Assembly: GCF_017656155.1 (NCBI RefSeq)
Contig: NZ_JACDOH010000002.1
Span: forward strand, 1-64,000
Reading direction: 5' to 3'
Length of the DNA: 64,000 nt
Source of the DNA: Thermosyntropha sp.
GTDB taxonomy: Bacteria; Bacillota; Syntrophomonadia; Syntrophomonadales; Syntrophomonadaceae
The first letter of the stretch is position 1, and every line of letters begins with the position of its first letter. The notes beneath the pieces were generated by a model. That model ran no database searches. It had not been told where the DNA came from and saw only the letters and a program-made list of their open reading frames with translations. This document shows, piece after piece, positions 5,852 to 55,777 of the stretch. The translations under genes were made by a program, and so were the position numbers.

Positions 5852-5874
5852 AATTTAAAAATTAAATCCCAAGT

Positions 5875-5905
5875 AAACCGAGCAGGCTCGGTTTATTTGT
5901 GTTTT
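5875..5905 (+). terminator. Rho-independent terminator after pnp
   Basis: AAACCGAG (5875-5882) pairs with CTCGGTTT (5887-5894) around a 4-base loop, followed by a T-rich tail (ATTTGTGTTTT). Confidence 0.85.
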
Positions 5906-6025
5906 CTGGGCTGTTTTATATGAATAATGCCCCTTCAGTATGAATATAAATTTATGAGTAATTTTAAGGGGTGATTAATATTTTCTGTTGAGAGATTTTA
6001 TTACTGGCAGATTAATCGCAGAGCC

Positions 6026-6826: not shown

Positions 6827-6829
6827 GGA

Positions 6830-7543
6830 GTGAGGATATATTTTATTACTAAGAAGAATTTATTGACTATAGGCATTGTTTTTATTCTATTAGCAGCTTT
6901 TTTAACTTTTTCTTTTATTTATTATGGAAAAAGTACAGTGGCATCCCGTGTGACTGAGCCTATATATCAAGGTAATACGGGTAAGAAAGTAGTTGCTATT
7001 ACAGTTAATGTTGATTGGGGTGAGGAGTTTGTTCCGCAAATGCTGGAGATATTTGATAAAAAAGGGGTAAAGGTTACTTTTTTTGTTACCGGAAAATGGG
7101 CTAAGAAAAATCAGGAGCTGCTTAAAAAGATGAGTGATAAGGGACACAGTATTCAGAACCATGGTTATGAGCATGTCCATTTTAACTCTCTTTCCATAGA
7201 GGAGTCCGTGGAGCAGATAAAAAAGGCGGAAAAAATTATTTATGAGATAACAGGCAGAAAGACTAAGTTTTTTGCTTCTCCGTATGGCGAACAAAGCCAT
7301 AAAATATTAACGGCTGTATCTAGTATCGGCTATGATCTTGTGATGTGGAGTGTAGATACAATAGACTGGCAGCGGCCTGACCCGGGGACTATTGTTAAAA
7401 GGGTGGCCAATAAAGTGCATAATGATGCTATTATACTTATGCATCCAACTGAACCTACCGTTAAAGCATTACCCGAATTGTTGGAAAGGCTTCAAAAAGA
7501 AGGGTATAAAATGGTTACTATTGAAGAGATAGTTATAAGATAA
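6830..7543 (+). CDS. ylxY: Polysaccharide deacetylase family protein (YlxY-like)
   Basis: A NodB-fold carbohydrate esterase-like protein of 237 residues with one N-terminal membrane segment (about 10-32). The domain shows KKVVAITVNVDWGEEFVPQML near residue 50, VTFFVTGKWAKK, HSIQNHGYEHVHFN and the terminal AIILMHPT motif. The first metal-binding motif reads NVDWG rather than TFDDG, and the second H-x3-H is atypical, so activity may be altered. The position after pnp and before the mlpA homolog matches Bacillus ylxY. It starts at GTG 6830, four bases after the VanW-family stop. Confidence 0.85.
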   Translation: MRIYFITKKNLLTIGIVFILLAAFLTFSFIYYGKSTVASRVTEPIYQGNTGKKVVAITVNVDWGEEFVPQMLEIFDKKGVKVTFFVTGKWAKKNQELLKKMSDKGHSIQNHGYEHVHFNSLSIEESVEQIKKAEKIIYEITGRKTKFFASPYGEQSHKILTAVSSIGYDLVMWSVDTIDWQRPDPGTIVKRVANKVHNDAIILMHPTEPTVKALPELLERLQKEGYKMVTIEEIVIR

Positions 7544-7561
7544 AAGAAAAAGGCGGTAGCG

Positions 7562-8689
7562 ATGAAAAGGATAGTAAATCTGATTAAAATAAATTTATTT
7601 TTTTGTATAATAGCATTAGTTTTATTTTTATCTATATCGACAGTTTATGCCATTCCATTGCTTTACTCTAATTATTATTGTTTGGTGGATGGAGATAGTG
7701 GGCAGATTATAGTTTCTAAAAATGCAGATCAGAAGCGCGAGGTAGCCAGCACGACTAAAATGATGACTGCAATTCTGGCTGAAGAATATTGCAGTATGGA
7801 CGAAATGGCTACTGTAAGTTATAATGCAGCAAGGACTCATCCTTTTACTATTGGGCTCAGAGAAGGACAAAAACTTAAGATAGAAGAACTTTTAAAGGCA
7901 GCTTTGATACGCTCTTCCAATGATGCCGCTGTAGTATTGGCTGAGCATGTAGCGGGGGAAGAAAGGCTGTTTGCCCATCTTATGACAAAAAAGGCCTTTC
8001 TGATTGGAGCTGTTAATACGCATTTTGTTAATGCTTCTGGGCTTCCTGCTTCTGAACATTACAGCACAGTTTATGATTTGGCTTTAATAGGGAGATATTT
8101 GTTATCTAAAAAAGTGAGCGGTGAAATAGTAGGAAAAAAGCAGGACAAATTCAGGCACCCTGCTTATCATGAACCTTTAACTATAACTAATACAAATGGC
8201 TTATTAGGTTATTATGAAGGAGCCAATGGCATAAAGACGGGAACAGCTAATGCTGCAGGTAAATGTCTGGTGGCTTCTGCTGAAAGGAGGGGGAGAAAGC
8301 TTATAGCTGTAGTTCTAAAGTCAGGAGATCGCACCGGGGACTGTGTCCGGCTTTTGAATTTTGGCTTTAATGATACCCAAAGGGTAAAAGTTGTAGATCA
8401 GAGCAGTCCTTTTAAACAGTTAAAAGTGATAGATGGGAAGAAACCATATGTTGATATATATCCCGCTTATGAGGTCCCTTTATGGATGGGAGAGGGGACA
8501 CCTTACATTGAAAAGAGGGTTAAGCTGAATTATAGTTTAAAGGCTCCTGTGCTTATGGGAGAAAAAGTAGGGGTTTTAGAAATATATGCAGATGGGAAAC
8601 AGGTTGCAGAAGTTCCGCTAGTTTCCAGTGAAACTGTAAAAGAGAAAAATAATTTAATAGTAAATCTTTATTACAAAATATTAAATTAA
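7562..8689 (+). CDS. D-alanyl-D-alanine carboxypeptidase (DacF-like)
   Basis: A low-molecular-weight penicillin-binding protein that trims the terminal D-Ala from peptidoglycan stem peptides. The 375-residue product has a signal peptide (about 1-30, ending STVYA), the S63-TTK66 catalytic motif, S118-S-N120 and K225-TG, followed by the C-terminal PBP5-type beta domain (about 285-375). The lysine spacing and length are those of DacF-type enzymes of spore formers. It sits between the deacetylase and the M16 peptidase, so it may be co-transcribed with them. Confidence 0.93.
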   Translation: MKRIVNLIKINLFFCIIALVLFLSISTVYAIPLLYSNYYCLVDGDSGQIIVSKNADQKREVASTTKMMTAILAEEYCSMDEMATVSYNAARTHPFTIGLREGQKLKIEELLKAALIRSSNDAAVVLAEHVAGEERLFAHLMTKKAFLIGAVNTHFVNASGLPASEHYSTVYDLALIGRYLLSKKVSGEIVGKKQDKFRHPAYHEPLTITNTNGLLGYYEGANGIKTGTANAAGKCLVASAERRGRKLIAVVLKSGDRTGDCVRLLNFGFNDTQRVKVVDQSSPFKQLKVIDGKKPYVDIYPAYEVPLWMGEGTPYIEKRVKLNYSLKAPVLMGEKVGVLEIYADGKQVAEVPLVSSETVKEKNNLIVNLYYKILN

Positions 8690-8722
8690 AGCTATAACAG
8701 ATTTAAACATGGAGGTATTAAA

Positions 8723-9997
8723 GTGGTCAATTTTTGGACATTATCAAACAAGGCTAAACTGGTGGTCGAAGAAATCCCTTATCTGAAATCGGCGGCAATT
8801 AATGTGTATATAAAAGTGGGATCAAGGCATGAGAAAGAAAATATGACAGGAGCCAGCCATTTTGTTGAACATATGCTTTTTAAGGGTACTGATAAAAGAA
8901 GTGCCCGGGATATTGCAGAAAGCTTTGAAATCATAGGTGGACAGCTTAATGCTTATACTTCCAAGGAATATACCTGTGTTTATGCACGGACTTTAGATGA
9001 AAATATATATGAAGCTATGGATATTATTTTTGACATGATTTTTAACTCTTCTTTTTCGCTTAAGGACTTTAATACCGAAAAAGGGGTAGTAATAGAAGAA
9101 ATAAATATGTATGAGGATACTCCTGATGATTTGATACATGATTTATTTATGCAAAACCTGTGGCAGAATCATCCTATGGGGAAACCTATTTTAGGCACTC
9201 TAGAAACGGTAAGCAGTTTTGCTAGGGATGATATATATTCTTTTTATAGGCAAAGTTATGTTCCTTCGAATATGGTAATATCCGTTGCCGGTAATATTGA
9301 TGGAAATAAAATTAAAGAAAAAGTTGAGTATTATTTGGACAAAGCTTCTTCAAACCGCGAATTTTCAGGAGCAGTTTTGGATAAGCCAAAAGAATCGATG
9401 AACTTTGTAAAACTTTTGCCTAAGGATACGGAACAAATACAGATATGCTTGGGGGTTCCAGGAATTTCTTATCTGGCTGAAGAAAGATATACCCAGCATG
9501 TTATGAACAGCATTTTAGGTGGTGGCATGAGTTCCAGGCTTTTTCAGACTATGAGAGAAGAAATGGGACTAGCTTATTCAGTTTATTCTTATCCTTCCAA
9601 TTATTCTGATACAGGGGCATATTCTATATATATAGGAACAGGAGCTAATAATATAAGCAAGTTTTTTGCCGCTTTATATGAAGAGCTGGATAGGTTTATA
9701 AGTAAGGGAGTAAGTGAAGAGGAGGTTTATCGTTCTAAACAGCTCATTAAATCAAGTATGTATTTAGGTCAGGAAAGCGTCATGAATCGCACTGGCAGGA
9801 TGGGGAAATCGTTGATGATGTATGGGGAAATAATACCGGTAGAAAAAGTTGTAGAAAATATTATAGCGGTGACTCCTCAAATGGTTAAGGAATTAGCTTC
9901 ACGACTTCTTTGTTTTGAATCTATTTCTTTAGCAGCTATTGGTCCGGAAAAAGTGTTGAAAGAAGTTGAGAAAGGGTTTAAGAATTGGTTTAAATAA
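8723..9997 (+). CDS. mlpA: M16-family zinc peptidase (MlpA/YmxG-like)
   Basis: A pitrilysin-fold metallopeptidase of 424 residues. The inverted zinc motif HxxEH appears as [11 protein letters not shown] near residue 47, with the third ligand Glu in [14 protein letters not shown] near 124. The C-terminal half carries the inactive M16 partner domain, with [27 protein letters not shown] near residue 270. The gene lies in the conserved pnp-ylxY-mlpA-ymxH order known from Bacillus, where MlpA has been linked to processing and regulation; its substrate here is unknown. The start is GTG with ggaggt upstream. Confidence 0.92.
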
Positions 9998-10010
9998 AGG
10001 AGAATTTATT

Positions 10011-10448
10011 ATGAAAGTATATGTGAAAAGATTACATAGTGATGATTTGCCTTTGCCGTGTTATATGACCTCAGGCTCTTCAGGACTGGATCTTTATGCA
10101 GCAGTTGAAAAAGAAATAATTATAGCTCCAGGCAAGATTTGTTTGGTGCCTACCGGAATTGCCATATCTATTCCGGAAGGTTACGAGGCACAGATTCGTC
10201 CCCGCAGTGGATTGGCTTTAAAACATGGCATTACCCTGCTTAATACTCCCGGAACTATTGATTCTGATTATCGTGGGGAAATAAAAGTTATTGTTATAAA
10301 TTTAGGAGACAAAGAGTATATTTTAAAAAGAGGTGAGCGTATAGCTCAGATGGTCTTTACGCGAATAGAAAAGGTTGAGCTGGAAGAAACAGATGATTTA
10401 GATTTTACAGAGCGTGGAAGTGGAGGTTTTGGACATACGGGAGTTTAG
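10011..10448 (+). CDS. dut: dUTP diphosphatase
   Basis: The trimeric dUTPase hydrolyses dUTP to dUMP, keeping uracil out of DNA and feeding dTMP synthesis. All five motifs are present in order: [42 protein letters not shown] and the C-terminal P-loop-like [11 protein letters not shown] chose the ATG at 10011 (145 residues) because aaaggag is upstream; the frame stays open further back into the end of the M16 peptidase gene, which is only 13 bases away. Confidence 0.97.
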
Positions 10449-10461
10449 AAGGGGGAAGTAA

Positions 10462-10731
10462 ATGAAACTTAATGAACTGGTAGGTAAAGAAATGATAAAT
10501 ATTTATGATGGGATGAGGATGGGGACGGTAGGAGAGTCTGACATGCTTATTGACCACGAAACAGGAAAAATAATTTCAATAATTTTGCCTAATCGTGGAA
10601 ATGCCTTTACATTTTGGGCTGATCGCCAAAAGCTTGTAATTCCGTGGGAAGCGGTAAAAAAAATTGGCAGGGAAGTAATCGTGGTTGATCTTGACCATAC
10701 CCATATGCGGCTTAAGAATAACTCTATTTAA
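10462..10731 (+). CDS. ymxH: PRC-barrel sporulation protein (YlmC/YmxH family)
   Basis: A single PRC-barrel domain of 89 residues: KLNELVGKEMINIYDGMRMG, then a beta-rich middle and VIPWEAVKKIGREVIVVDL. Members of this family are conserved in spore-forming Firmicutes and are encoded next to the M16 peptidase, as here; the molecular function is unknown. A gaaggggga ribosome binding site precedes the ATG. A strong terminator follows, ending the pnp-to-ymxH region. Confidence 0.88.
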   Translation: MKLNELVGKEMINIYDGMRMGTVGESDMLIDHETGKIISIILPNRGNAFTFWADRQKLVIPWEAVKKIGREVIVVDLDHTHMRLKNNSI

Positions 10732-10758
10732 GAAATATTACATAAAGTAAGAGTAAGT

Positions 10759-10793
10759 ACAGGATGTTTAGAGAAAAAACATCCTGTTTTTTT
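10759..10793 (+). terminator. Rho-independent terminator after ymxH
   Basis: An 11-bp stem, ACAGGATGTTT (10759-10769) with AAACATCCTGT (10777-10787), is followed by an unbroken T-run. The remaining 200 bases to the next gene are AT-rich with no gene seen. Confidence 0.93.
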
Positions 10794-10994
10794 GGTTAAA
10801 AGCAAAATAAAATACGAATACTAAAAAAAATATCTGATTTTAATGTGGAAATAAATATGCCTAATGGGTTATATAGTTAATAATAATGAAAACTCCTGAA
10901 ATAAAAGCTTATATGAGGCTGGTTACATGCTATAATTTTTATTAAAATTTATTTGTTGTTGTGTATAAAAATAAAATATTTGGAGGGCTGAATA

Positions 10995-12065
10995 ATGCAT
11001 AAAAAGTTGTTTATTCCTGGACCTGTAGAAGTAAAACCAGATGTACTCGAGAAAATGGCAACTCCTATGATAGGACACCGCAGTAAGGATGCCTCAGCTT
11101 TACAGAGAAGGATAAGCGACAAATTAAGAAAACTGTTTTACACGGAAGAAGAAATACTCCTTTCAACTAGTTCAGGCAGTGGACTTATGGAAGGAGCTAT
11201 TCGTTCCTGTACAGCCAAAAGAGCAGCTGTTTTTTCCGTAGGGGCTTTTGGTAAGAGATGGTATGATATGGCTGTAAGCAATAATGTTCCGGCTGATTTG
11301 TTTGAGGTTGAGTGGGGACAGGCTACTACTCCGGAGATGGTAGATGAAGTTTTATCTACCGGCAAGTACGATTTAGTAACTATAACCCACAATGAAACAT
11401 CTACCGGGATTATGAATCCGGTTGAAGAGATATCCAAGGTAATAAAGAAATATCCTGATGTAGTATGGTGTGTTGATGCGGTAAGTTCTGCTGGAGGAAG
11501 CAAGATTGAAGTAGATAAATTAGGCATAGATATATGCATAACTTCTACCCAGAAGGCATTAGGATTACCTCCAGGATTAGCTATATGCACTTTTTCTAAA
11601 AAAGCAATTGAAAGAGCTAAACAGGTTCCTCATAGAGGATATTATTTGGATCTTCTTTCACTTTATAATTATATTCAGAAAAAAGATTATCAATATCCTT
11701 CAACTCCGTCACTTTCCCATATGTTTGCTCTCGATTATCAGTTAGACAAGATTTTAGAAGAAGGTCTGGAAAATCGTTTTGCCCGTCATATTGAAATGGC
11801 TGAATATGTCCGGGCATGGGCTAAGAAGAATTTTGCTCTTTTTGCTGATGAACGCTATCTTTCCAACACCCTTACCACTGTAGCTAACACCAGGGAAATA
11901 GATGTTGCTGCTTTAAATAAAGAATTGGGACAGAGAGGTTTCCAGATTTCTAATGGTTATGGCAAGATGAAGGAAAAGACTTTCCGTATTGCTCATATGG
12001 CTGACTATACTTTAGATGATATTAAAGAGCTCTTAGGACATATTGATGACATATTAAAACTGTAG
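10995..12065 (+). CDS. Serine-pyruvate/alanine-glyoxylate class V aminotransferase
   Basis: A PLP-dependent class V aminotransferase of 356 residues. The N-terminus LFIPGPVEVKPDVLEKM and GHRSKDASAL are typical of the alanine-glyoxylate/serine-pyruvate group. The PLP lysine lies in STQKALGLPPG near residue 188, with the cofactor-binding aspartate in VWCVDAVSSAGG near 156. Next to a 3-phosphoglycerate dehydrogenase, such enzymes often act on 3-phosphohydroxypyruvate in serine synthesis; this role is inferred from context. A ttggagggctg ribosome binding site precedes the ATG. Confidence 0.9.
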   Translation: MHKKLFIPGPVEVKPDVLEKMATPMIGHRSKDASALQRRISDKLRKLFYTEEEILLSTSSGSGLMEGAIRSCTAKRAAVFSVGAFGKRWYDMAVSNNVPADLFEVEWGQATTPEMVDEVLSTGKYDLVTITHNETSTGIMNPVEEISKVIKKYPDVVWCVDAVSSAGGSKIEVDKLGIDICITSTQKALGLPPGLAICTFSKKAIERAKQVPHRGYYLDLLSLYNYIQKKDYQYPSTPSLSHMFALDYQLDKILEEGLENRFARHIEMAEYVRAWAKKNFALFADERYLSNTLTTVANTREIDVAALNKELGQRGFQISNGYGKMKEKTFRIAHMADYTLDDIKELLGHIDDILKL

Positions 12066-12105
12066 TTTATTCCTTTAATTTTTAAATTAAACAGGGGGAA
12101 AAGCA

Positions 12106-13017
12106 ATGGTTAGAATACTGGTCACGGACGGAATGGAAAAAAGTGCAGTAGAATCACTGCGCAAGGCAGGTTTTGAGGTAGTTGAACAGCATTATGAATC
12201 AGATGAATTAGGAGAAGCACTTAAAAATTTTGATATAGTTGTTGTGCGCTCTGCTACTAAAATAAGAAAAGATCACATTGACAAAGCTTTGGAAACTGGA
12301 AGGCTTAAGCTGATTATTCGTGGCGGCGTAGGAGTAGATAATATAGATGTGGCTTATGCTATGGAAAACGGAATACAGGTTTTAAATACCCCAAAAGCAA
12401 GCAGTGCTTCTGTTGCTGAACTTACTATTGCTCACATGTTAGCAGTAGCCAGGTTCCTTCATCTTTCTAATGTTACTATGCGTCAGGGTAAATGGGATAA
12501 AAAGAATTATAAAGGGATTGAACTTTATGGCAAAACTTTAGGATTAGTTGGATTCGGCCGTATTGCCCGGGAAGTTGCCAAACGGGCTAAGGCTTTTGGC
12601 ATGAAGGTAATTTATACAGATATTAGAGGGAAAATAGATGATGCTGGAGAATATGAATATCGTGATTTTGAAGATCTTTTAAGAGAAAGCGATTTTGTTT
12701 CACTGCATTGTCCTTATAATGCGGAATATGGCCCTATTATAGGCAAAAAACAGCTTGAACTTATGAAAGATGGGGCTTATCTTGTAAATCTCGCCCGCGG
12801 CGGAGTAGTAGACGAAGATGCTCTTATTGAAGCTTTAGAATCAGGTAAACTGGCAGGGGCGTGCATAGACGTTTTTGAAGAAGAACCTACTAACAACTCG
12901 AAACTGGTAAATCATCCCAGAGTTTCGGTTTCTCCGCATATAGGGGCTTCGACGGCTGAAGCTCAGCAGAGGATTGGTGAGGAGATTGTAGATATAATAA
13001 TGAATTATCAATTTTAG
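12106..13017 (+). CDS. serA: D-3-phosphoglycerate dehydrogenase, short form without ACT domain
   Basis: NAD-dependent D-2-hydroxyacid dehydrogenase, first step of serine synthesis. Visible are IRGGVGVDNIDV near residue 68, the NAD motif GLVGFGRIAREVAKRAKAFG near 146, the catalytic region VNLARGGVVDEDAL near 228 and SPHIGASTAEAQQRIG near 277. At 303 residues it lacks the C-terminal serine-sensing ACT domain of long SerA proteins, so feedback inhibition through that domain is not expected. It lies between the aminotransferase and the DUF1015 gene with gaps of 40 and 21 bases, probably one operon. Confidence 0.88.
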   Translation: MVRILVTDGMEKSAVESLRKAGFEVVEQHYESDELGEALKNFDIVVVRSATKIRKDHIDKALETGRLKLIIRGGVGVDNIDVAYAMENGIQVLNTPKASSASVAELTIAHMLAVARFLHLSNVTMRQGKWDKKNYKGIELYGKTLGLVGFGRIAREVAKRAKAFGMKVIYTDIRGKIDDAGEYEYRDFEDLLRESDFVSLHCPYNAEYGPIIGKKQLELMKDGAYLVNLARGGVVDEDALIEALESGKLAGACIDVFEEEPTNNSKLVNHPRVSVSPHIGASTAEAQQRIGEEIVDIIMNYQF

Positions 13018-43877: not shown

Positions 43878-43999
43878 GAGAAAATTTATACCATAAAAAT
43901 AAGACTCAAAGCTAGGAGGGAACCCAAGTTTTTTGATAAAAAAGGCTTTTTATAATGTATAATTTATTTGATTTTATATCTTTAGAAAGGATCGGACTT

Positions 44000-46084
44000 A
44001 TGGGGATAGAACAGTATAAATCAGAGATAGAAAGATGTTTTGAAGATGTTGAAAAGGTGAGAAGAGTTATTCCCGACTATGTGTATAGAGAAGAACAGGT
44101 AAATTTAAGCAGAAGTATTATAGAGGTATTTGAAAGGGAAGAGTTTTTGCTGGCAGAGGCAGGAACAGGAATAGGGAAAAGCTATGCGTATTTGATTCCA
44201 GCTATTTTATGGACAGCCCGGGAAAAAAGCAAAGTAGTGGTTTCCACTAAAACTAAAGCCCTTCAGCAGCAGATTGTAGAGAAGGATATACCTAATCTAA
44301 GGCAGGTATTAGACCTTGATTTTACTTATGCTGAAGCTAAGGGGCGGGAAAACTTTTTATGCTGGAATAAATATATGGAAATTTTGGCGGGTAAAAAGAA
44401 GCTGGAAAAGGAAGAAGTGGAACTGGTAGAAGCAATTTTATGGTGGGCAGAGAAAACTGCAACCGGCGACCGCAAGGAACTGATGTTAGAAAATCGCTTG
44501 CTTAGACACTGGAGAATTTTGGCTGCCGATCGGGACAGCTGCAGAAAAGAAGCTTGTCCTTATCAGGAAAAATGTTTCCGTTTAAAAATGATGAAAAAGC
44601 TGCAAAAAGCCGACATTATCATAACTAACCATGCTTTACTTTTGTCTGACATCCTGGTTGATAATAAATTCCTGCCGGAATATGAGTACCTGATAATTGA
44701 CGAGGCACATGGCTTTGACCGGGAAGCTTTTGATAAACTGGCTATTTCTTTCATTTTTGATGAGATTAAAGATGTTCTGAATGTGCTTTATATTAAAGAC
44801 AGGAGGTTTGAAAAGGGTTATCTTGCCTATCTTAAACGAAGTTTTCCGGTATTAAATATGTTTATAAATGAGATAGAAGTCTTGGTGGAAAGGGCGATAA
44901 GCCTCACAGAGAAGCTACATGAATGGTTTAACAATTGGGCAGGAAGCTTTGACGATTTAAATTTTTCCAAGGTTTTAAAAGAAGAAGATAAAAAAGCTTT
45001 TCTTGACGAGGATTTTTATTCCCTTTACATTGATTGGCATGATATATTGAATCTTTTGGTTTTAAAAGTAGAAAATCTAAAAGAACAGTTAAATGAGACT
45101 GATGAGTCGTTGGATTTAGGAATAATAATCGAAAATCTTGTTTTTCAGCTTGATAAAGCCTTTGCCATATTTGAGGAAGATATGGAACGGAGCGATAAAA
45201 TTGTATGGATTGAGTTTAATGGAGGAAAGGTAAGATTAGTTGCTTCATCTCCATTATATATAGGGGATATTTTATATAACCGGCTTTATAAAAAAATGAA
45301 AGCCTTAGTTATGGTTTCAGCTACTTTAGCTGTTGAAAATGACTTTTCTTATTTTGTTTCTAAAAGCGGACTTAATTTTATTGAGAACGAAGGCAAGCTT
45401 AATACTTTAATAGAGAATTCACCTTTTACCTATAAAAAGCAGGCATTGCTCTATGTTATAGAAGATATGCCGATGCCTGATTCTGTTTATTTTAATAAAG
45501 CACTGTCCGAGGTAGTATTACAAATAATTGAGTTTATTCCCGGTCGAATTCTTCTTTTATTTACTTCCCGCCGGCAGATGAGGGAAGCCTCTCAAATACT
45601 GCGTCCCTTGTGTGAATCAAAAGGGATAAGGCTTTTAGTTCAAAATGAAGATGGGGAATCAGGGGCACTGGTAAACGAATATATAAGTTCTCCTAATGCA
45701 ATTTTGATGGGGCTTGATACCTTCTGGGAAGGTATAGATTTAAAAGGGGAACTTTTAAAATGCCTTGTTATTACTAAGCTGCCTTTCCGTTCGCCTGATG
45801 AACCATTTGCTAGAGCCTTGAGCCTTTATTTTACTTTGCAGGGACAAAACAGTTTTAAAAGTTTTATGCTTCCCGATGCGGTAATCCGTTTTAAACAAGG
45901 TGTAGGAAGATTGATAAGAAGTGAGCAGGATAAAGGATTGATTATTGTCCTGGATAGTCGTATGGAAAAAAAGGTTTATGGAACAACATTTAAGAAGAAT
46001 ATACCAATTACTAATATCCAAAAAATAAAAAAAGAAGAACTGAAAAATCAGCTTGAAAAGGCTTTATCGTTTTTAGATTTTTAG
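44000..46084 (+). CDS. dinG: DinG-like superfamily 2 DNA helicase
   Basis: An XPD/DinG-type 5'-3' helicase of about 694 residues. The Walker A is LAEAGTGIGKSYAYLIPAIL near residue 48, an iron-sulfur cluster is suggested by cysteines in NFLCWNKY and DSCRKEACPYQEKCF (about 110-195), the DEAH box is LIIDEAHGFD near 232, and motif VI is RFKQGVGRLIRSEQDKGLI near 635. There is no N-terminal exonuclease domain. ATG 44000 has aaagga 8 bases upstream; ATG 43955 is an alternative without a site. Confidence 0.88.
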   Translation: MGIEQYKSEIERCFEDVEKVRRVIPDYVYREEQVNLSRSIIEVFEREEFLLAEAGTGIGKSYAYLIPAILWTAREKSKVVVSTKTKALQQQIVEKDIPNLRQVLDLDFTYAEAKGRENFLCWNKYMEILAGKKKLEKEEVELVEAILWWAEKTATGDRKELMLENRLLRHWRILAADRDSCRKEACPYQEKCFRLKMMKKLQKADIIITNHALLLSDILVDNKFLPEYEYLIIDEAHGFDREAFDKLAISFIFDEIKDVLNVLYIKDRRFEKGYLAYLKRSFPVLNMFINEIEVLVERAISLTEKLHEWFNNWAGSFDDLNFSKVLKEEDKKAFLDEDFYSLYIDWHDILNLLVLKVENLKEQLNETDESLDLGIIIENLVFQLDKAFAIFEEDMERSDKIVWIEFNGGKVRLVASSPLYIGDILYNRLYKKMKALVMVSATLAVENDFSYFVSKSGLNFIENEGKLNTLIENSPFTYKKQALLYVIEDMPMPDSVYFNKALSEVVLQIIEFIPGRILLLFTSRRQMREASQILRPLCESKGIRLLVQNEDGESGALVNEYISSPNAILMGLDTFWEGIDLKGELLKCLVITKLPFRSPDEPFARALSLYFTLQGQNSFKSFMLPDAVIRFKQGVGRLIRSEQDKGLIIVLDSRMEKKVYGTTFKKNIPITNIQKIKKEELKNQLEKALSFLDF

Positions 46085-48389: not shown

Positions 48390-48413
48390 TCCTGCTTGAG
48401 GCAGGATTTTTTT
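48390..48413. terminator. Hairpin terminator upstream of nurA
   Basis: TCCTGC (48390-48395) pairs with GCAGGA (48401-48406), followed by seven T; the flank on the other side is also AT-rich. It isolates the following operon from upstream transcription. Confidence 0.75.
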
Positions 48414-48486
48414 ATTTATCAGCTTGTTAACCAACATGTAAAAAATTTATAATAGAATAAATGTTTGGTTTAAAAGAGGGGTTTTT

Positions 48487-49461
48487 ATGTTGGAAGCTCA
48501 CCTGATAAAAAGTTTACAGGATTTTAATGAAAGGATAAAGAGAAACTATCAAGATTTGCCGCAGGCTGATACTTTGAGGGATAAAATATCTTTATTTGGA
48601 AGGTTTATCTATTGTAATAAAATCGATGCGTCACGAATTCCAGAATTTACAGAATGCCGCCCTGTTGTTGCAGTTGACGGTTCACGCATAGAATATGCTT
48701 CTTTTTTTCCCTACAGTCTGGTTTTTATGCGTACTTTAGCTAAATGTACTGGAGGAAGTGATATAACAAGAAGTGGAATTATTTCACCTCTGAATCTAGA
48801 GGTATACAACCAGTTAGAAAAAATATCTGATGAGCAGGACATAAGTTTAGAAGAAGCATACACCTTGCATTTAAAATATTCATTGGCATATATGGAGCTT
48901 TTGACTGCTTTAGAAGCAGCTAAAACCTATAAGCCATATATGCTTATGCTGGACGGTGGTTTTTTACTTTTTGACCGGTTTGAGGAATGGGAGGAACTGC
49001 GCCGGGTATGTATAGAAAACAAAATAATTTTGACTGGAATTATTGAAGAAATTGCTACCGCAGAATTAGCCAACTGGCTTGATTTAAATCGGGATAATCG
49101 TATAAGGATTTACGACCGGGAAGTATTGTTTGGCATTTTAGAAGTGGGAGAATATTTGATTTTTAATTCTGATCGGAGAATAAAAAAGGATTATTGCACG
49201 GTCTTTGCCCGTCTGGGGACTTCGCCGCAGGCTATTGGCTGTGATTTTTTGTCTGAACAGGAAGATGATGTTTTTAAATCGATGGATTTTATTTATACTT
49301 TGACTCCGAAAAGCGGACAGGGGATACCTCTCTGGCTGCAGATCACTGATGCCAGGGTCAGGATAAAGCGTGAGGAAGCGGAAAAGCTGGTTGAGAATTA
49401 TTTAGACCCTTACGTAAAAGAAAAGATTTTTAAAGCGAACCGGAAAAAACGAGCTTTTTAA
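48487..49461 (+). CDS. nurA: NurA-domain 5'-3' nuclease
   Basis: A 324-residue protein of the NurA family, RNase H-like nucleases that work with the HerA translocase to resect DNA ends. The first catalytic aspartate is D64 in VVAVDGSRIEYA, and a second acidic site is D156 in YMLMLDGGFLLFDRF, both conserved in NurA; the C-terminal segment SGQGIPLWLQITDARVRI is also typical. It is the first gene of an operon with herA, an Mre11/SbcD gene and Rad50/SbcC parts. A aagaggggt site precedes the ATG. Confidence 0.85.
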   Translation: MLEAHLIKSLQDFNERIKRNYQDLPQADTLRDKISLFGRFIYCNKIDASRIPEFTECRPVVAVDGSRIEYASFFPYSLVFMRTLAKCTGGSDITRSGIISPLNLEVYNQLEKISDEQDISLEEAYTLHLKYSLAYMELLTALEAAKTYKPYMLMLDGGFLLFDRFEEWEELRRVCIENKIILTGIIEEIATAELANWLDLNRDNRIRIYDREVLFGILEVGEYLIFNSDRRIKKDYCTVFARLGTSPQAIGCDFLSEQEDDVFKSMDFIYTLTPKSGQGIPLWLQITDARVRIKREEAEKLVENYLDPYVKEKIFKANRKKRAF

Positions 49462-49489
49462 AAACTGCTCATGAGAAAGGAGAAGAGAA

Positions 49490-51352
49490 ATGCAGGTTGT
49501 AGGCATGACAAATGAACATGAAGTATGGGCAGCCTCAAACAGACGCAAGTTCAGACTTAATGAACTGCTTATTATTGAAGATGATAAACTCGGCAATCCG
49601 GTAGGTGAAGTTATTGAAACTTATGCCTTAAATCCGTTTATTCCGGCAGTTGATGAAAAATCGCCGGTGCTTATCGACCATGAAGTAGTAGACTCTTTAA
49701 GTCGTTTAGGCTATGAGATAAATGAAGAAGTTATATATACAGCTAAAATCAGGATTTTAAGCGAACTTTTTTATCCGGTGAGTACGGGAGTAAGGGTTAG
49801 GGAACCACATTTTCATGAGGTAGAAGAGCTCCTTATAAAATCAAATCCGTCGGAGGGATTAGTTTTAGGTGTAATTCAAGGAACCGAGGGGCTTTTAGGA
49901 TCTTTACCTGAAGAATACAGGGATATTGCACCTTTATATGAAAATAAAACCGGGATTAAAGAACAAAACGGGGTTCCTTTTATTTTAGACTATCGGGCTA
50001 TGAACAACTATCCTCATATCGGCATTTTTGGAGGGTCGGGATCAGGTAAATCTTTTGGTTTACGGGTGCTGATAGAAGAACTTATAAAGAAACGGGTTCC
50101 ACTCTTAGTTTTTGACCCTCATTATGAAATGAGCTTTAAGGAAATCTTTGATCCTTCCCTCCCACCGCATTTTAAGGAAAGCTTTGAGCATCGTTCGCTT
50201 ATTTTGACGGTGGGAAGTGATGTAGGTGTTAAATTTGAGACTTTAAACTCCGGCGATTTATGCAATCTGTTAAGTGCGGTAAGCCCTGTTACAGAAGCAA
50301 TGGAAAATGCAGTTGCTTCTATTTTAGAATCCGGAGATAATTTAGAAACATTTACCTCAAGGCTTAATGACTTGATTTCTCTTTTAGAAAGTCCCGATGA
50401 AAGTGAGTTTAAAGAAGCTTTTATGCAAAGAAGGGATATTGAAGAAAATAAAAAAGCACAGTATTTAAATCGCCTTTCAGCCTTGAAAAAACAGGTGGGA
50501 CAGCTCAGCACTTTAAAATCGATAAACTGGCGGCTTAACCGGTTGATCCGGCAGGGTATATTTATGGAACAGGGGATAAGGCAGATTGAGGAAGGATTAA
50601 AGGCGCAGAAGACGGTAATAGTAAGAGGAAGCATCTGGATGCTTAAAGTTTACGCTGCTTATGTCTTAAGGAGCATTTATAATAAACGCCGCGAATATCG
50701 AGACGCTTTGCAAAGGGGACAAAAAATAGAAAACAAATTTCCGCCTTTTTTTGTAGTTACCGATGAGGCTCATAACTTTGCTCCCCGGGGAGAGCAAAAT
50801 GTGCCATCCCGCCGGGAAATAAAGGAGATAGCCCAGGAAGGCAGAAAATACGGGGTGTTTTTGATACTTGCTACTCAAAGGCCAGCCCTTCTCGATGATA
50901 CGGTTAATGCTCAGCTTAATACCAAAATTATATTCAGGACAGTTAGATCTACGGATTTAGGAGTCATCAAAGAAGAAACCGATATAGGGAGCGAAGAAAT
51001 TAAAAGGCTGCCTTATCTTCCTTCTGGCACTGGTTTTGTATCTTCACCCATTTTTGGCCGCACTGTTTCTATGCGGGTAAGGGTAGCTAAAACCAGAAGT
51101 CCGCATCAGTTGAATCCGTTTGACGAGCTGGAGATGGAAGACGAGCAGGATAAAGAGGTTATGGAGATTATAAATCAGTGTTTACCGGTAAATCAATCTA
51201 ATCTTATCGATGTAATGAAAAGATTGGAAAACCGCGGATTTGGCATGGGTGAAAGTGAAATTATAAATTACCTGGATAAAATGGTGGAAAAAGGAATAGT
51301 CGGCAAAGAAAATAATCCTCTTCTAGGTTTTATATATAAGAGGAATTCATAA
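49490..51352 (+). CDS. herA: HerA-like DNA translocase ATPase
   Basis: A 620-residue HerA/FtsK-superfamily ATPase. An N-terminal HAS-barrel-like region (1-165) is followed by the ATPase core: Walker A G181-GSGSGKS-F near 188, Walker B FFVVTDEAHNFAP with D425-E426, and the sensor ILATQRP with Q463. The insert between (about 250-370) is helical. A C-terminal helical region (about 540-620) resembles a winged helix (MKRLENRGFGMGESEIINYLDKMVEKGIV). HerA forms a hexameric ring that drives DNA through NurA. The start has gaaaggagaag; it lies 28 bases after nurA. Confidence 0.9.
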   Translation: MQVVGMTNEHEVWAASNRRKFRLNELLIIEDDKLGNPVGEVIETYALNPFIPAVDEKSPVLIDHEVVDSLSRLGYEINEEVIYTAKIRILSELFYPVSTGVRVREPHFHEVEELLIKSNPSEGLVLGVIQGTEGLLGSLPEEYRDIAPLYENKTGIKEQNGVPFILDYRAMNNYPHIGIFGGSGSGKSFGLRVLIEELIKKRVPLLVFDPHYEMSFKEIFDPSLPPHFKESFEHRSLILTVGSDVGVKFETLNSGDLCNLLSAVSPVTEAMENAVASILESGDNLETFTSRLNDLISLLESPDESEFKEAFMQRRDIEENKKAQYLNRLSALKKQVGQLSTLKSINWRLNRLIRQGIFMEQGIRQIEEGLKAQKTVIVRGSIWMLKVYAAYVLRSIYNKRREYRDALQRGQKIENKFPPFFVVTDEAHNFAPRGEQNVPSRREIKEIAQEGRKYGVFLILATQRPALLDDTVNAQLNTKIIFRTVRSTDLGVIKEETDIGSEEIKRLPYLPSGTGFVSSPIFGRTVSMRVRVAKTRSPHQLNPFDELEMEDEQDKEVMEIINQCLPVNQSNLIDVMKRLENRGFGMGESEIINYLDKMVEKGIVGKENNPLLGFIYKRNS

Positions 51353-51377
51353 TTTATTGATAGAGAGGAGGGCTGAT

Positions 51378-52370
51378 ATGCGCTTTCTTTATATAACTGA
51401 TACCCATTTACGGGGAAATGCCCCTAAAAACCGAATAGATAATTTTATTGTAAATTTAAAAAATAAAATTGATGAGGTGATTGATTTAGCGTATAAATAT
51501 CAGGTTGATTATATTCTGCACGGTGGCGATTTTTTTGATTCTCCCAGCCCTTCACTGGCAGCAGTAGGTGATTTTTTGAAACTTTTTACAAAGGAAAATT
51601 TTCCTCCTATTTATGCAATAAGCGGAAATCATGATGTGTTTGCTGCTAATTTAAACACCCTTCCGCGAACCATGCTCGGCTTTTTAGACAAGCTGGGATT
51701 TTTAAAGCTCATTATGCCTGGTGAGAAAATTATGCTCGAAAAAAATGACATAACCGTTCAGCTTACTGGACAATCTTACTATTATGATATAGATCGGGAA
51801 GATGAACATAATGCATATATAGTTAAAAAGGGTAATGCGGATATTGCAATTCATATGGTGCATGGTATGCTTGTTAATGATCCCGGTTTTCCAGGCCAGG
51901 ATTTTACTTTAATTGACCATATCCTAGATACTGAAGCAGATATTACCTTATCTGGTCATAATCATCTGGGTTTTGGAATTATTGAAAAAGAAAATAGACT
52001 TTTTGTAAATCCCGGCGCATTAATCCGGATTAGCAGCGATAAAAAAGAGATGTCCCGGAAGGTTAGTGTGGCACTAATAAAAATCGAAAGAAAAAAGCCA
52101 GAGGTTGACCTAATTTCGCTTACCTCTGCCTTGCCGGGAGATTTAGTATTATCAAGGGAAGCAATAGAAGCTGAAGCTGAACGCAGCAAAAAAATAGCTG
52201 GTTTTGTAGCTGAGATAAGTAAGGCGACTAATCTTGAGAGAACGGATGCCGAGCGTATTATTGAGGAAATTGCCCGTGCACAGAACATAAATCTGGAAGT
52301 GAGGAAAGAGGCTTTAGAGAGAATTTCTAAAGTCCAGGAAAGGCTGGAGAACGGCGAAAGAGGTGCATAG
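51378..52370 (+). CDS. Mre11/SbcD-type nuclease
   Basis: A 330-residue calcineurin-like phosphoesterase of the Mre11/SbcD type. All metal motifs are visible: D8-x-H10 in YITDTHL, HGGD51 in ILHGGDFFD, GNH85D in ISGNHD, H162 in HMVHG, and H194/H196 in LSGHNHLG. The C-terminal 130 residues include a helical part (EAIEAEAERSKKIAGFVAEISKA) that could dock on a Rad50 partner. ATG 51378 follows gaggaggg. It overlaps the next gene by eight bases, which is the ATPase half expected of its partner. Confidence 0.9.
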   Translation: MRFLYITDTHLRGNAPKNRIDNFIVNLKNKIDEVIDLAYKYQVDYILHGGDFFDSPSPSLAAVGDFLKLFTKENFPPIYAISGNHDVFAANLNTLPRTMLGFLDKLGFLKLIMPGEKIMLEKNDITVQLTGQSYYYDIDREDEHNAYIVKKGNADIAIHMVHGMLVNDPGFPGQDFTLIDHILDTEADITLSGHNHLGFGIIEKENRLFVNPGALIRISSDKKEMSRKVSVALIKIERKKPEVDLISLTSALPGDLVLSREAIEAEAERSKKIAGFVAEISKATNLERTDAERIIEEIARAQNINLEVRKEALERISKVQERLENGERGA

Positions 52371-53820
52371 TAAGGTGGAATGCTATATAAAGAGGCTTAA
52401 AATAAAAAATTTTCAATCCCATAAAAACACGGATATTGAGCTTTTACCAGGGCTCAATATCCTGGTAGGAGAATCAGATCAGGGTAAAAGTTCGGTAATC
52501 AGAGCTCTGCGTTGGCTTTTTTATAATGAGCCTAGTGGAACAGGTTTTATAAGGGAAGGGGAAACCTATTGTGAAGTGACAGTTGAGATGAATAGTGGGG
52601 TTGTTATAAGCAGGATAAGAGATGCCAGAATAAACAGGTATTTAATAAAATATCCTGATGGCTCTGAAGATAAATTTGACAGTGTTGGTAATCAGGTTCC
52701 TCCAGAAGTAAAGAGAGAATTGGGTATAACCAGCCTAAATTATGGTGAAAAGAGTTTGGACATCAACATTGCCTATCAGTTGGATTCTCCTTTCCTTTTT
52801 GATAAAAGTGGACCGGATAAAGCCAAAATTATTGGCAGTATAGCCGACCTTCATATAATAGATGCTGCTCAGCAGGAGCTTTTGAGAGATATAAAAAGTC
52901 AGCAATCTAAACACAGTGAACTGGAAAAAGAAATTACCGGCTTTAAAGCTGAGTTGGACATGTATGAAGATTTAGATTCTCAAAAGCAATTAGCAGCCCA
53001 AATAAATCAATTACTATCTGCAGCTGATGAAAAAAGAAAAGAGAAGAATTATTTTGAAGAAATAAAAAGTAGATGGGACAGGATACAGAATGAAATAGAT
53101 ATTAACAGTGCGAAATTAGAACGGTTGAAAAATATCGAGGTGGCAGAAGATTATTATAGGAATTCCTGTGAAAGGTATAATCTGTTTAAAAAGCTGACAG
53201 ATATAAATATCAACATGAAAAAAACAGTTGAAAATATTACTTTTTGTGAACAGAAGCTTGAAAAGTTAAAAAGCCTGGAAGATCTGCAAAAAATAAAAAA
53301 AGATTTAGAGAACTTGTCCTATAATTATAAAGAGCTTTGTAATATTGAAAAAAGACAAAAGGAAATAGAAGAAAACTTAAAAAGGATAAATTTAACAATA
53401 GAACATACCGAGAAATTGGATGAGATTGAAAAAATGATCGATTTGCTTAGAGAAAAGAGAAATCAAGGCAGTGAGATGCAGAAGATAAAGAAAGAAATGG
53501 CAAGGATGAAGGAAGGAATAAGTAAAGCAGAAATGATTATTAATAAAACTGCGAATGTTCCTGAGCTGGAAGAACTGCAAATTAAAATTACCGTAAATTT
53601 GGATAAATACCAAAAATTGCAGGAAATAAAGCAAAGATATGATAGGGTTGTTGCGGAACGGAACAAGGTGCTGAAACATTTAAACAGGTTGGAGGAAGAA
53701 TATGAAGATATGCTTAAGAAATATATAACTATTTTGCAAGAAATTGAGAGATGTCCTACCTGTAATTCGAAGATAACAGGTGATGTTGTGAAAGAAATCA
53801 TGAATAAAATGAGTTTATAA
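52363..53820 (+). CDS. Rad50/SbcC-like protein, N-terminal half ending in CxxC hook
   Basis: A 485-residue protein with a Rad50-type N-terminal ATPase lobe: IKNFQSHKNTDIELLPGLNILVGESDQGKSSVIRALRWLF, Walker A at residues 36-43, a Q-loop region around NYGEKSLDINIAYQLDSPFL. From about 165 it is predicted coiled coil (repeated Lys/Glu heptads). It ends with C464-PTC467-NSKITGDVV, the zinc-hook motif that in normal Rad50 lies mid-chain, and has no Walker B lobe. That lobe is encoded separately at 54106. The start is GTG 52363, overlapping mre11; GTG 52375 is an alternative. Confidence 0.85.
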   Translation: MHSKVECYIKRLKIKNFQSHKNTDIELLPGLNILVGESDQGKSSVIRALRWLFYNEPSGTGFIREGETYCEVTVEMNSGVVISRIRDARINRYLIKYPDGSEDKFDSVGNQVPPEVKRELGITSLNYGEKSLDINIAYQLDSPFLFDKSGPDKAKIIGSIADLHIIDAAQQELLRDIKSQQSKHSELEKEITGFKAELDMYEDLDSQKQLAAQINQLLSAADEKRKEKNYFEEIKSRWDRIQNEIDINSAKLERLKNIEVAEDYYRNSCERYNLFKKLTDININMKKTVENITFCEQKLEKLKSLEDLQKIKKDLENLSYNYKELCNIEKRQKEIEENLKRINLTIEHTEKLDEIEKMIDLLREKRNQGSEMQKIKKEMARMKEGISKAEMIINKTANVPELEELQIKITVNLDKYQKLQEIKQRYDRVVAERNKVLKHLNRLEEEYEDMLKKYITILQEIERCPTCNSKITGDVVKEIMNKMSL

Positions 53821-53839
53821 ATAATGGGGAGGGGACATT

Positions 53840-54106
53840 ATGCAAAGAGAAATTTCCTATGAGGAAAGAATAAAAAGGTTAGATGAGGCTTTAAAAAAAG
53901 CCCGTGAAGAAAGAACCCGTGCATTAACCAGCAAGGAACATTTAGAAAAAGAACTGGAAGAGCTTAGAAAGAAAGCTGAAGAATTAGGTGTTGAACCTGA
54001 TAAGCTAGGTGAAAAGATTCTAGAAATAAAAAAAGAAATTGATGAAATGCTTGAAAAAGCTCAGAAGCTTCTTCCCCCCGAATATCTGGAAAAGGTGGGT
54101 TTTTGA
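53840..54106 (+). CDS. Small coiled-coil protein between the Rad50 halves
   Basis: An 88-residue, almost wholly charged helical protein (RIKRLDEALKKAREERTRALTSKEHLEKELEELRKKAEELGV...). It has no cysteine and no catalytic motif. It starts with a good ggggagggg site and overlaps the next ATG by one base (TGATG). Its place between the two ATPase halves suggests it contributes part of the Rad50 coiled coil; this is inference. Confidence 0.7.
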   Translation: MQREISYEERIKRLDEALKKAREERTRALTSKEHLEKELEELRKKAEELGVEPDKLGEKILEIKKEIDEMLEKAQKLLPPEYLEKVGF

Positions 54107-54777
54107 TGACAGAAAATAAGCTTAAGGAGGCTTATGCTCTATTTGAAGAAAATATTAAAAGAAGGGAAGGAGAGAAAGAAAAGCTAGAACAGATTATTAC
54201 GGCCAAAGAGAAGGAGATAGATGAAATTAAGGAAAAAATTTATCTTTATCAGCAGGTAAATGAAATCTACAAAAAAGCGGCGGAATATGCCAGAGAAAAA
54301 TCGAAAGTAGCCATTGAAAACATCGTTTCACGGGCTTTAAGTATCGTTTTTTCCGATGATTTAAAATTTGAGGTCGAAATTAAAAGAGAAAGAGATAAAG
54401 ATAGTGCGCGCTTTCTGGTTTCTTCAACCTACGGTGGAGAATTTAAGATAACCAATGAACCCCAGGAAGCACGCGGCGGTGGAGTAGTAGATATAATTTC
54501 TTTAGCACTTAGAATTGCCCTTCTTGAAACTTCAAAATTTAACAATTTTGGGCCTTTGGTATTAGATGAACCAGCCAAGCATGTTTCCGGCGAACATATA
54601 GATAATGTCGCTGCATTTTTGCGGACTGTTATTACGACATTTAACCGCCAGATAATTATGGTTACTCATAATCAATACCTGGCTGAAAGTGGGGATATAG
54701 TTTACGAAGTAAAGATTGAAGATGGGGAAAGCCAGGTAAAGTTAAAATCTAGCTCTGAATTGCCAGCAGTTCTTTAA
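54106..54777 (+). CDS. Rad50/SbcC-like protein, C-terminal ATPase half
   Basis: A 223-residue protein starting with a coiled coil (1-75), then the C-terminal ABC lobe of Rad50: signature region EARGGGVVDIISLALRIALLE (residues 121-141), Walker B GPLVLDEPAKHVS with D154-E155, and the H-loop H188 in IIMVTHNQ. The canonical LSGG serine is replaced by Gly (RGGGVVD). With the N-terminal half it would rebuild one ATP site. It has an aaaggtggg site, overlaps the preceding gene by one base and runs 29 bases into the convergent DUF2225 gene. Confidence 0.85.
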   Translation: MTENKLKEAYALFEENIKRREGEKEKLEQIITAKEKEIDEIKEKIYLYQQVNEIYKKAAEYAREKSKVAIENIVSRALSIVFSDDLKFEVEIKRERDKDSARFLVSSTYGGEFKITNEPQEARGGGVVDIISLALRIALLETSKFNNFGPLVLDEPAKHVSGEHIDNVAAFLRTVITTFNRQIIMVTHNQYLAESGDIVYEVKIEDGESQVKLKSSSELPAVL

Positions 54778-55777
54778 ATTTTTGCTTGAGTTCTTCTTCT
54801 GTGGCAAATCCCTGGGGAAGATTTTCACCTGTCCATTGTATGACAGCATCTAATAAGGCTCTTAATACTTCTTCTCTGGTGAATAATTTATTTTTTGAGC
54901 TGCTCTGGTTGCTTACTTTTCGTAGCCATTCAATCTGGTCATCGTAAAGATGAGCAGGCATCTGCATAATGGGCCTGGATTTAGGTTTATCAGTATTTAC
55001 GGTATAATTTTGATTTGAAACAGAAGAAATAACATTTTGTTCAAATTTAGCCGTTTCAGTTGCTGCCGAAGAAGAAGCATTATCTTCTTCGGTTTTATTT
55101 TTTTGCATTTCTTCCCTGGCTAAACTCCATTGCTCACGGGCCATCTTTTCAATGTTGGGAGAATTTTTTATGTTTTTATGAGTAATTACTTTATTAAACC
55201 AGTTTACAGCTTCTCTGTAATTGCCTAAACGGCGGTTTAATTCGCCGATTAAATAGATAAGCTGGACTTCATCTAAGTTACCGACTTTATTGCCGGTAGT
55301 AAATGCTTGCATATATTTATTTAATGCTTCTTTTAAGAATTTGTATTCTAAATCGTGGTTGCCGATTTCACGGGCAATCCAGGCAGAAGCTAAGAGCAGG
55401 CCTGCAATCTCTCCAGGAGGAGCTTTTTTTAGTTGAGCAGTACGAATAGCAAGTTGAAAAGTATATAAGGCAGTTTTAGCATCTCTCTCTCCACACATAG
55501 AAGGACTATTTTCTGATTTCAACTGGGATAGGGCTAAAGCGATCTGTTCAGCAATCTTGGGAGATAATTCAACAGCAAAGCTGCTGGATGAAGCTGCATA
55601 TTCACAAGAAGGACATACGATTATTGAGTAATAAAGAGGATTGAGACCCCGGTAAATGGTGTGAAAGTCGCTTTCTTTTCTTTCTACATAAATCGCCGAA
55701 CTGCGCACAGCCAGTGTGCTAAAATTTGTTTTACAAAGAGGACAGGTATATTCACGCATAAAAAAAGGACTGGTCAT
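54749..55777 (-). CDS. DUF2225 family protein
   Basis: A 342-residue protein of the DUF2225 family. The N-terminal zinc-ribbon pairs are CPLC (residues 12-15) and CPSC (near 55-58), followed by TPR-like helices (YTFQLAIRTAQLKKAPPGEIAGLLLASAWIAREIGNHDLEYKFLKEALNKYMQAF; IYLIGELNRRLGNYREAVNWFNKVITHK). Function is unknown; family members are found in spore formers. Its 3' end overlaps that of the Rad50 C-terminal half by 29 bases. The start has gaggtga. Confidence 0.87.
   Translation of the reverse strand: MTSPFFMREYTCPLCKTNFSTLAVRSSAIYVERKESDFHTIYRGLNPLYYSIIVCPSCEYAASSSSFAVELSPKIAEQIALALSQLKSENSPSMCGERDAKTALYTFQLAIRTAQLKKAPPGEIAGLLLASAWIAREIGNHDLEYKFLKEALNKYMQAFTTGNKVGNLDEVQLIYLIGELNRRLGNYREAVNWFNKVITHKNIKNSPNIEKMAREQWSLAREEMQKNKTEEDNASSSAATETAKFEQNVISSVSNQNYTVNTDKPKSRPIMQMPAHLYDDQIEWLRKVSNQSSSKNKLFTREEVLRALLDAVIQWTGENLPQGFATEEELKQKFKELLAIQS

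Follow-up and report, generated by a model that had tools for sequence, protein, structure and literature searches.

What is a member of the Bacillota doing with a set of genes that is linked in the same way in hyperthermophilic archaea? The question is raised by six adjacent genes at positions 48487 to 54777 of a DNA stretch from Thermosyntropha sp., which together encode the nuclease NurA, the translocase HerA, an Mre11-type nuclease and the ATPase Rad50. The stretch, hereafter the window, comprises 64,000 nucleotides (positions 1 to 64,000 of contig NZ_JACDOH010000002.1) of a 2.1-Mb genome assembled in 15 contigs and 100% complete (GCF_017656155.1); a second genome of the same genus holds a 34,544-bp contig of Thermosyntropha lipolytica DSM 11003. 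An earlier note on this DNA had called the cluster archaeal-style. Its gene content fits that description, but its Rad50 is split in a way found here in Bacillota and their phages, its Mre11-Rad50 part has a recA-linked Bacillota form as its sister group, and its HerA reaches 70 of the 970 bits required by the curated HerA equivalog model. We think it quite probable that the operon is a Bacillota-type machine for processing DNA double-strand ends, made of two linked modules, and not a copy of the archaeal operon.

All six open reading frames (ORFs) are present in the ORF list of the window, at or near the positions where the earlier note had read them, and profile searches agree with its assignments, placing the first two genes within NurA and HerA. 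The nurA gene (48487..49461, plus strand, like the whole operon) encodes a nuclease of 324 amino acids (aa) that matches PF09376 at 57.4 bits (cut-off, 21). The acidic residues D64, E137, and D156, its presumed active site, are invariant in an alignment of 19 relatives. After a gap of 28 bp follows herA (49490..51352), encoding a 620-aa FtsK/HerA-type DNA translocase with a PF01935/DUF87 match of 65 bits (cut-off, 23.2). This protein matches solved HerA (4d2i and others), and its Walker A lysine (K187) and Walker B Asp-Glu pair (D425, E426) are invariant across 17 relatives. The third gene, mre11 (51378..52370), encodes a 330-aa Mre11/SbcD-like phosphoesterase nuclease counted from its ATG, 25 bp downstream of herA. 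Its ORF is open from a TTG at 51357, and the ATG at 51378 is the likely start because its ribosome-binding site is good. Mre11 matches Metallophos (PF00149) at 50 bits (cut-off, 21.5) as well as solved Mre11/SbcD structures. The dedicated Mre11/SbcD models match more weakly: 33 bits against a cut-off of 77.65 for the SbcD model TIGR00619, and 42 against 500 for the archaeal Mre11_Sulfo equivalog. All eight metal-site residues (D8, H10, D51, N84, H85, H162, H194, and H196) are invariant across 20 relatives. The catalytic motifs listed by the earlier note in NurA (D64, D156), HerA, and Mre11 (D8, D51, H85, H194, H196) look intact.

Rad50 is known as one long chain. In the window it is encoded by three genes, which we call R50N, cc88, and R50C, and no single polypeptide with a continuous antiparallel arm is found there. 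The earlier note had listed parts of Rad50; what it overlooked is how unusual a three-piece Rad50 with an 88-aa subunit is. R50N (52363..53820, overlapping mre11) is a 485-aa N-terminal half comprising the ATPase N-lobe, coiled coil, and zinc hook. It exceeds the cut-offs of AAA_23 and AAA_15 and also matches Rad50 models, solved Rad50 heads, and PHROG 16465 (E 3e-68). Its Walker A motif, GESDQGKS (residues 36 to 43; 52468..52491), has G36, G41, and K42 invariant in 82 relatives, as is the Q-loop residue Q139 in the relatives' alignment. The zinc-hook motif CPTC (residues 464 to 467; 53752..53763) lies only 18 residues from the C terminus, with C464, P465, and C467 invariant in the same 82 relatives. 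Profile positions 413 to 479 match the solved Rad50 hooks 6zff (E 1e-6) and 1l8d (E 4e-6), and the Pfam zinc-hook model stays below its cut-off (15.4 versus 24.3 bits). A CPxC motif occurs within 40 residues of the C terminus in 123 of 127 R50N sequences; the exceptions include at least two genes from draft genomes that are broken at a further point, as well as a longer protein from the phage contig L159.

The second piece, cc88 (53840..54106, 19 bp after R50N), is a separate 88-aa coiled-coil protein matching PHROG 18563 (E 2e-6), with two predicted helices (residues 7 to 48 and 53 to 77; predicted local distance difference test [pLDDT], 85). It is better conserved than R50N, sharing 75% and 64% identity with its two nearest relatives versus 41% and 36% for R50N. 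R50C (54106..54777), whose likely start, the ATG at 54106, overlaps the cc88 stop codon as TGATG, is the C-terminal half, with a short coil, signature, Walker B, and H-loop. It matches solved Rad50 C-lobes, PHROG 15167 (E 2e-54), and Rad50 C-terminal models, the last below their curated cut-offs. In alignment A1, G125 and G127 of the signature-like motif ARGGG (54469..54483), D155 and E156 of the Walker B motif LVLDE (54556..54570), and the H-loop region are invariant. The profiles of R50N and R50C match opposite lobes of solved Rad50 heads, R50N also by fold comparison. The elements of the bipartite ABC ATPase of Rad50 are all present, spread over two chains. Separate ribosome-binding sites precede the Rad50 pieces.

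The split is not peculiar to this genome. When GTDB genomes were scanned with an alignment of R50C, 258 relatives emerged, and the best 80 of them were read. Every one of these loci encodes R50N, cc88, and R50C, in that order, as separate ORFs. Mre11 lies upstream of them in 79; in the remaining locus, L106, the contig ends within R50N. Viral contigs were scanned twice, yielding 48 loci for R50C and 80 for R50N, some of them on contigs common to both scans, and nearly all of these phage loci show the split. The most divergent phages carry Mre11 between the Rad50 pieces, and cc88 is sometimes undetected there. Some phages have further genes between the pieces; Bacillus phage vB_BboS-125, for instance, keeps the window's order of the three but has an AP2-domain gene inserted behind R50N, and its Mre11 gene lies immediately downstream of the set. 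Split pieces are likewise encoded on plasmids of Bacillus, Geobacillus, and Alkaliphilus. All nine combinations of frame relations among the three ORFs were seen, which excludes a fixed frameshift joining the pieces. One genome (G139) has a second, degenerate copy of the split Mre11-Rad50 (L283, 6242-9142) with truncated Mre11 and R50C, perhaps a prophage remnant.

Natural fusions indicate how the pieces belong together. A 700-aa protein encoded on the minus strand of locus L272 (8651-10753; genome G114), next to a canonical AddB gene, joins Mre11, an R50N head (profile positions 3 to 170), and an R50C head (47 to 214) without coil, hook, or cc88. This protein is a minimal Mre11-Rad50, and it is good evidence that Mre11 and both Rad50 halves form one head. 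Fusions of Mre11 with R50N alone occur in seven loci (L028, L126, L137, L159, L222, L235, and L245), among them several phages and one Geobacillus plasmid; in L235 (2900-7100, on a 218,948-bp viral contig) the fusion is followed by separate cc88 and R50C genes. The second half of Rad50 is a separate gene in all cases but L272. We do not claim a cc88 inside the L159 fusion, where the match reaches only about 10 bits, and a search for further fusions of the L159 kind found none.

The gene neighborhoods reveal two forms of the system. Among the 80 genome loci, nurA-herA lies directly upstream of the split Mre11-Rad50 genes in 19, and recA, or cinA-recA, does so in 56; none has both. Loci of the second type follow the order cinA-recA-mre11-rad50-rny, with rny downstream in most of them and ymdB there in many (RecA, RNase Y, CinA, and RecX identities were confirmed with NCBIfam). 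In a tree of Mre11 plus R50C, the nurA-herA-linked loci, including the window, fall into one clade (support, 0.96) made up of 20 linked loci and three without visible nurA-herA, two of which lie near contig ends. The window's Mre11-Rad50 part is sister to the recA-linked Bacillota form. Nineteen other genome loci in which nurA-herA is complete keep the order seen in the window, which excludes chance and shows a conserved cluster, as opposed to scattered unrelated neighbors. Several linked carriers are named as thermophiles (Thermosyntropha, Ammonifex, Carboxydocella, and Desulfovirgula), as in the archaeal cluster; the recA-linked form gives the impression of being common in alkaliphiles and halophiles.

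The two modules also keep company when their genes are apart. Of 27 tested genomes that have no linked nurA-herA, 26 encode NurA at another site. In all eight regions inspected, the unlinked NurA gene adjoins HerA or is no more than about 350 bp from it; the pair sits near rsmI-like and metG-like genes in several Bacillales (neighbors read by eye). Because many relatives have the split operon directly downstream of recA and nurA-herA elsewhere, we regard the window as showing one form, with both modules fused into a single operon, of a more widespread Bacillota repair system. An evenly sampled set of 199 Bacillota genomes, 34 of which have the split Rad50, gave the same picture: NurA is present in 29/34 split-Rad50 genomes versus 9/165 others (Fisher p 6e-22), and AddB (E<=1e-100) in 7/34 versus 113/165 (p 4e-7). 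Among 61 close relatives, AddA exceeds its cut-off in 0/9 split carriers versus 39/52 others, and a strong SbcC occurs in 0/9 versus 30/52. None of 30 named split carriers has AddB over the cut-off, and an SbcC-like match (E<=1e-20) is found in three of them and not in the other 27. In the window's own genome, for which the earlier note had left the presence of addAB and sbcCD to be settled, canonical SbcC was not found, and AddAB occurs only as a divergent pair on another contig (L185, G000:C8:82001-98000; 4535-12118). This pair consists of a 947-aa AddB-like protein (157 bits; cut-off, 904) and a 1135-aa AddA-like protein (359 bits; cut-off, 708), followed by rmuC. A pair partly related to it occurs in another genome (G025) together with canonical AddAB.

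Taken together, these results suggest how the machine might work. In the first module, a HerA ring would pump DNA and NurA would cut it. In the second, the Mre11 nuclease would partner a Rad50 assembled from three separately made chains: R50N would supply the Walker A half, the zinc hook, and the greater part of the coiled-coil arm; R50C would supply the signature and Walker B half and a short return coil; and cc88, as a small helical subunit, would probably complete or cap the arm where the chain is broken, beside the hook. ATP would bring two R50N-R50C heads together, and their closure would gate Mre11 at a DNA end. Mre11-Rad50 would open or tether the end, which NurA-HerA would then resect to leave a 3' tail for RecA. 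By analogy with the archaeal complex and with Deinococcus NurA-HerA, the operon should act in end resection, and a role in opening or resecting ends for RecA is supported by the fact that the split Mre11-Rad50 adjoins recA in the sister clade. The earlier note's reading of the genes as a single operon-like unit, with DNA-end processing as its likely role, holds up.

The arm itself departs from the familiar design. A straight canonical arm, in which cc88 and the R50C coil pair with all of the R50N coil, was rejected: the lengths do not match (about 300 residues up versus about 130 down), and R50N varies in length, whereas cc88 and R50C are nearly constant in most loci. AlphaFold predicts R50N alone (mean pLDDT, 83; predicted template modeling score, 0.41) as a head with helices 163 to 199 and 204 to 344, a weak turn at 345 to 354, and then helices 355 to 396 and 399 to 461 running to the hook; the chain was modeled without its partners, and part of the turn has a pLDDT below 50. 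The spacing between Walker A and CPxC clusters near 383, 429, and 474 residues, a step of about 46, and the short-arm class lacks window residues 327 to 373, a region centered on the predicted turn (alignment A4). The model suggests a self-paired hairpin within R50N as the tip of the arm, a topology we do not claim because single-chain coiled-coil models can fold back falsely. The arm looks as if it varies by whole coil units of about 46 residues added at the tip. We also entertain, as a possible but doubtful idea, that the break beside the zinc hook and a bound cc88 form a functional gate, with the loading or release of cc88 opening or dismantling the arm. If so, Rad50 could be threaded on and off DNA in a way impossible for a covalently closed arm, and the retention of the split across Bacillota and phages would have a reason.

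Several observations weigh against this picture of a joint repair machine. The literature searched holds no experiment on any carrier, the binding of cc88 to Rad50 is something we infer, and the NurA profile found no match among solved structures by sequence. A repair role for bacterial NurA-HerA is not a given, since Deinococcus or Thermus mutants without nurA or herA show modest or even improved damage resistance (PMC9960219). One genome, G037 (L033/L042), shares its flanking genes with the window and keeps mre11-R50N-cc88-R50C, but its nurA-herA is gone and a search of the genome for NurA found none; the modules are therefore separable. The co-occurrence tests ignore phylogeny, and because the genomes are related the p-values are overstated. 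Finally, the divergent AddAB-like pair means that the operon is not the only possible resection route in its host.

Of the other explanations, the one that survives best is that two independent activities share a promoter, an SbcCD-like removal of hairpins or protein-blocked ends and an unrelated NurA-HerA function, with no joint machine. Of the 29 phylum-sample genomes that have both NurA and the split Rad50, 15 carry the two modules apart, and G037 has lost nurA-herA only, as this explanation would allow. We nevertheless consider it unlikely, given how strongly the modules co-occur even when unlinked (29/34 versus 9/165; 26/27) and that archaeal Rad50, Mre11, and HerA interact (PMC2288612).

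Acquisition of an archaeal nurA-herA-mre11-rad50 operon as a block by horizontal transfer is less likely still. Such a transfer would account for the linkage of the four functions as in hyperthermophilic archaea (PMC2288612) and for the thermophiles among the linked carriers. Against it, the Mre11-Rad50 part has the split seen in Bacillota and phages and groups as sister to the recA-linked Bacillota clade, the archaeal Rad50s whose entries and models gave matches are single-chain proteins, and NurA-HerA has spread as a pair of its own through the recA-type Bacillota. We give the same low probability to an anti-phage defense operon akin to other HerA-containing defense systems, a role the earlier note had offered and which does not fare well. 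Mre11-Rad50-like and HerA proteins are known in defense, and PADLOC reports matches in the operon; these are generic hits to HerA, ATPase, and phosphoesterase, with none for NurA. The system instead sits in core neighborhoods conserved in many genera (recA-rny; rsmI-like to metG-like; DinG to DUF2225), phages themselves carry the split Mre11-Rad50, and the presence of NurA in 26/27 recA-type carriers suggests housekeeping. That Rad50 is in three pieces because its gene is broken (through sequencing errors, decay, or programmed frameshifting of a normal rad50) is scarcely credible: the pieces are adjacent and ordered as in a normal Rad50, and two draft genomes (L063 and L086) show an additional break in R50N, but frameshift and decay are refuted by the conservation of the split, with identical break points in 80/80 genome loci and in phages, nine frame combinations, genes inserted between phage pieces, ribosome-binding sites of their own, and a cc88 better conserved than R50N between nearest relatives.

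Read as a Bacillota-type end-processing machine, the operon can be set beside the systems it resembles. In Sulfolobus, Rad50, Mre11, and HerA interact and their genes are cotranscribed (PMC2288612). The four functions are linked in both that operon and ours, the active-site residues are conserved here, and 5' end resection is likely; however, Rad50 here comprises three polypeptides, one of them a new 88-aa subunit, the host has RecA and not RadA, and HerA and NurA are of Bacillota type, far below archaeal equivalog scores. The Deinococcus NurA-HerA pair, which resects the 5' strand in vitro (PMC9960219), is likewise bacterial and of similar size (349 and 618 aa versus 324 and 620 aa here). The same paper names "a few bacteria, such as" Deinococcus-Thermus as carriers, whereas here the pair shares an operon with Mre11-Rad50 and is spread over the Bacillota. 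Bacterial SbcCD also combines an Mre11-type nuclease with a zinc-hook Rad50-type ATPase, but the ATPase here is split in three. Mre11/Rad50 fusions have been described in Mimivirus (R555) and in Bacillus phage 0305phi8-36 (PMC3175470), and Mre11-R50N fusions occur in the present family too. That 2011 paper did not observe one SbcC ATPase segment in the Bacillus phage and in Anaerostipes, and it describes neither the split nor an 88-aa partner; a separately encoded second half could explain the missing segment. PHROG families 16465, 18563, and 15167 correspond to R50N, cc88, and R50C but are listed as "exonuclease," unknown, and "ATPase," not as one Rad50. In the literature searched, which left most subscription papers outside, we came across neither a split Rad50 nor a Bacillota NurA-HerA/Mre11-Rad50 system.

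The flanks of the operon agree with the boundaries proposed by the earlier note. Upstream, a consensus scan found a terminator-like hairpin on the plus strand (48390..48406; TCCTGCTTGAGGCAGGA then T7). Between it and nurA lies a promoter-like site, TTGTTA-18-TATAAT (48424..48453, plus strand; 10/12 matches), of a kind equally frequent in shuffled and real sequence; both calls are consensus matches only. Downstream, the operon is bounded by a convergent DUF2225 gene (54749..55777, minus strand; PF09986, E 6e-55), which shares 29 bp with its 3' end and holds the same position in the nearest relatives (L031 and L032). A DinG/YoaA-like DNA helicase is encoded nearby, at 43955-46084; T. lipolytica retains it (L031), and L033 has a longer version of the protein.

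For the family, these observations have three consequences. Annotation pipelines label the Rad50 pieces hypothetical, exonuclease, or ATPase. NurA-HerA emerges as a core system, in two forms, of many Bacillota without canonical AddAB and SbcCD. And a Rad50 that is always made as three chains offers a natural means of testing how much of the arm and hook needs covalent joining, and at which points, for DNA tethering and nuclease gating.

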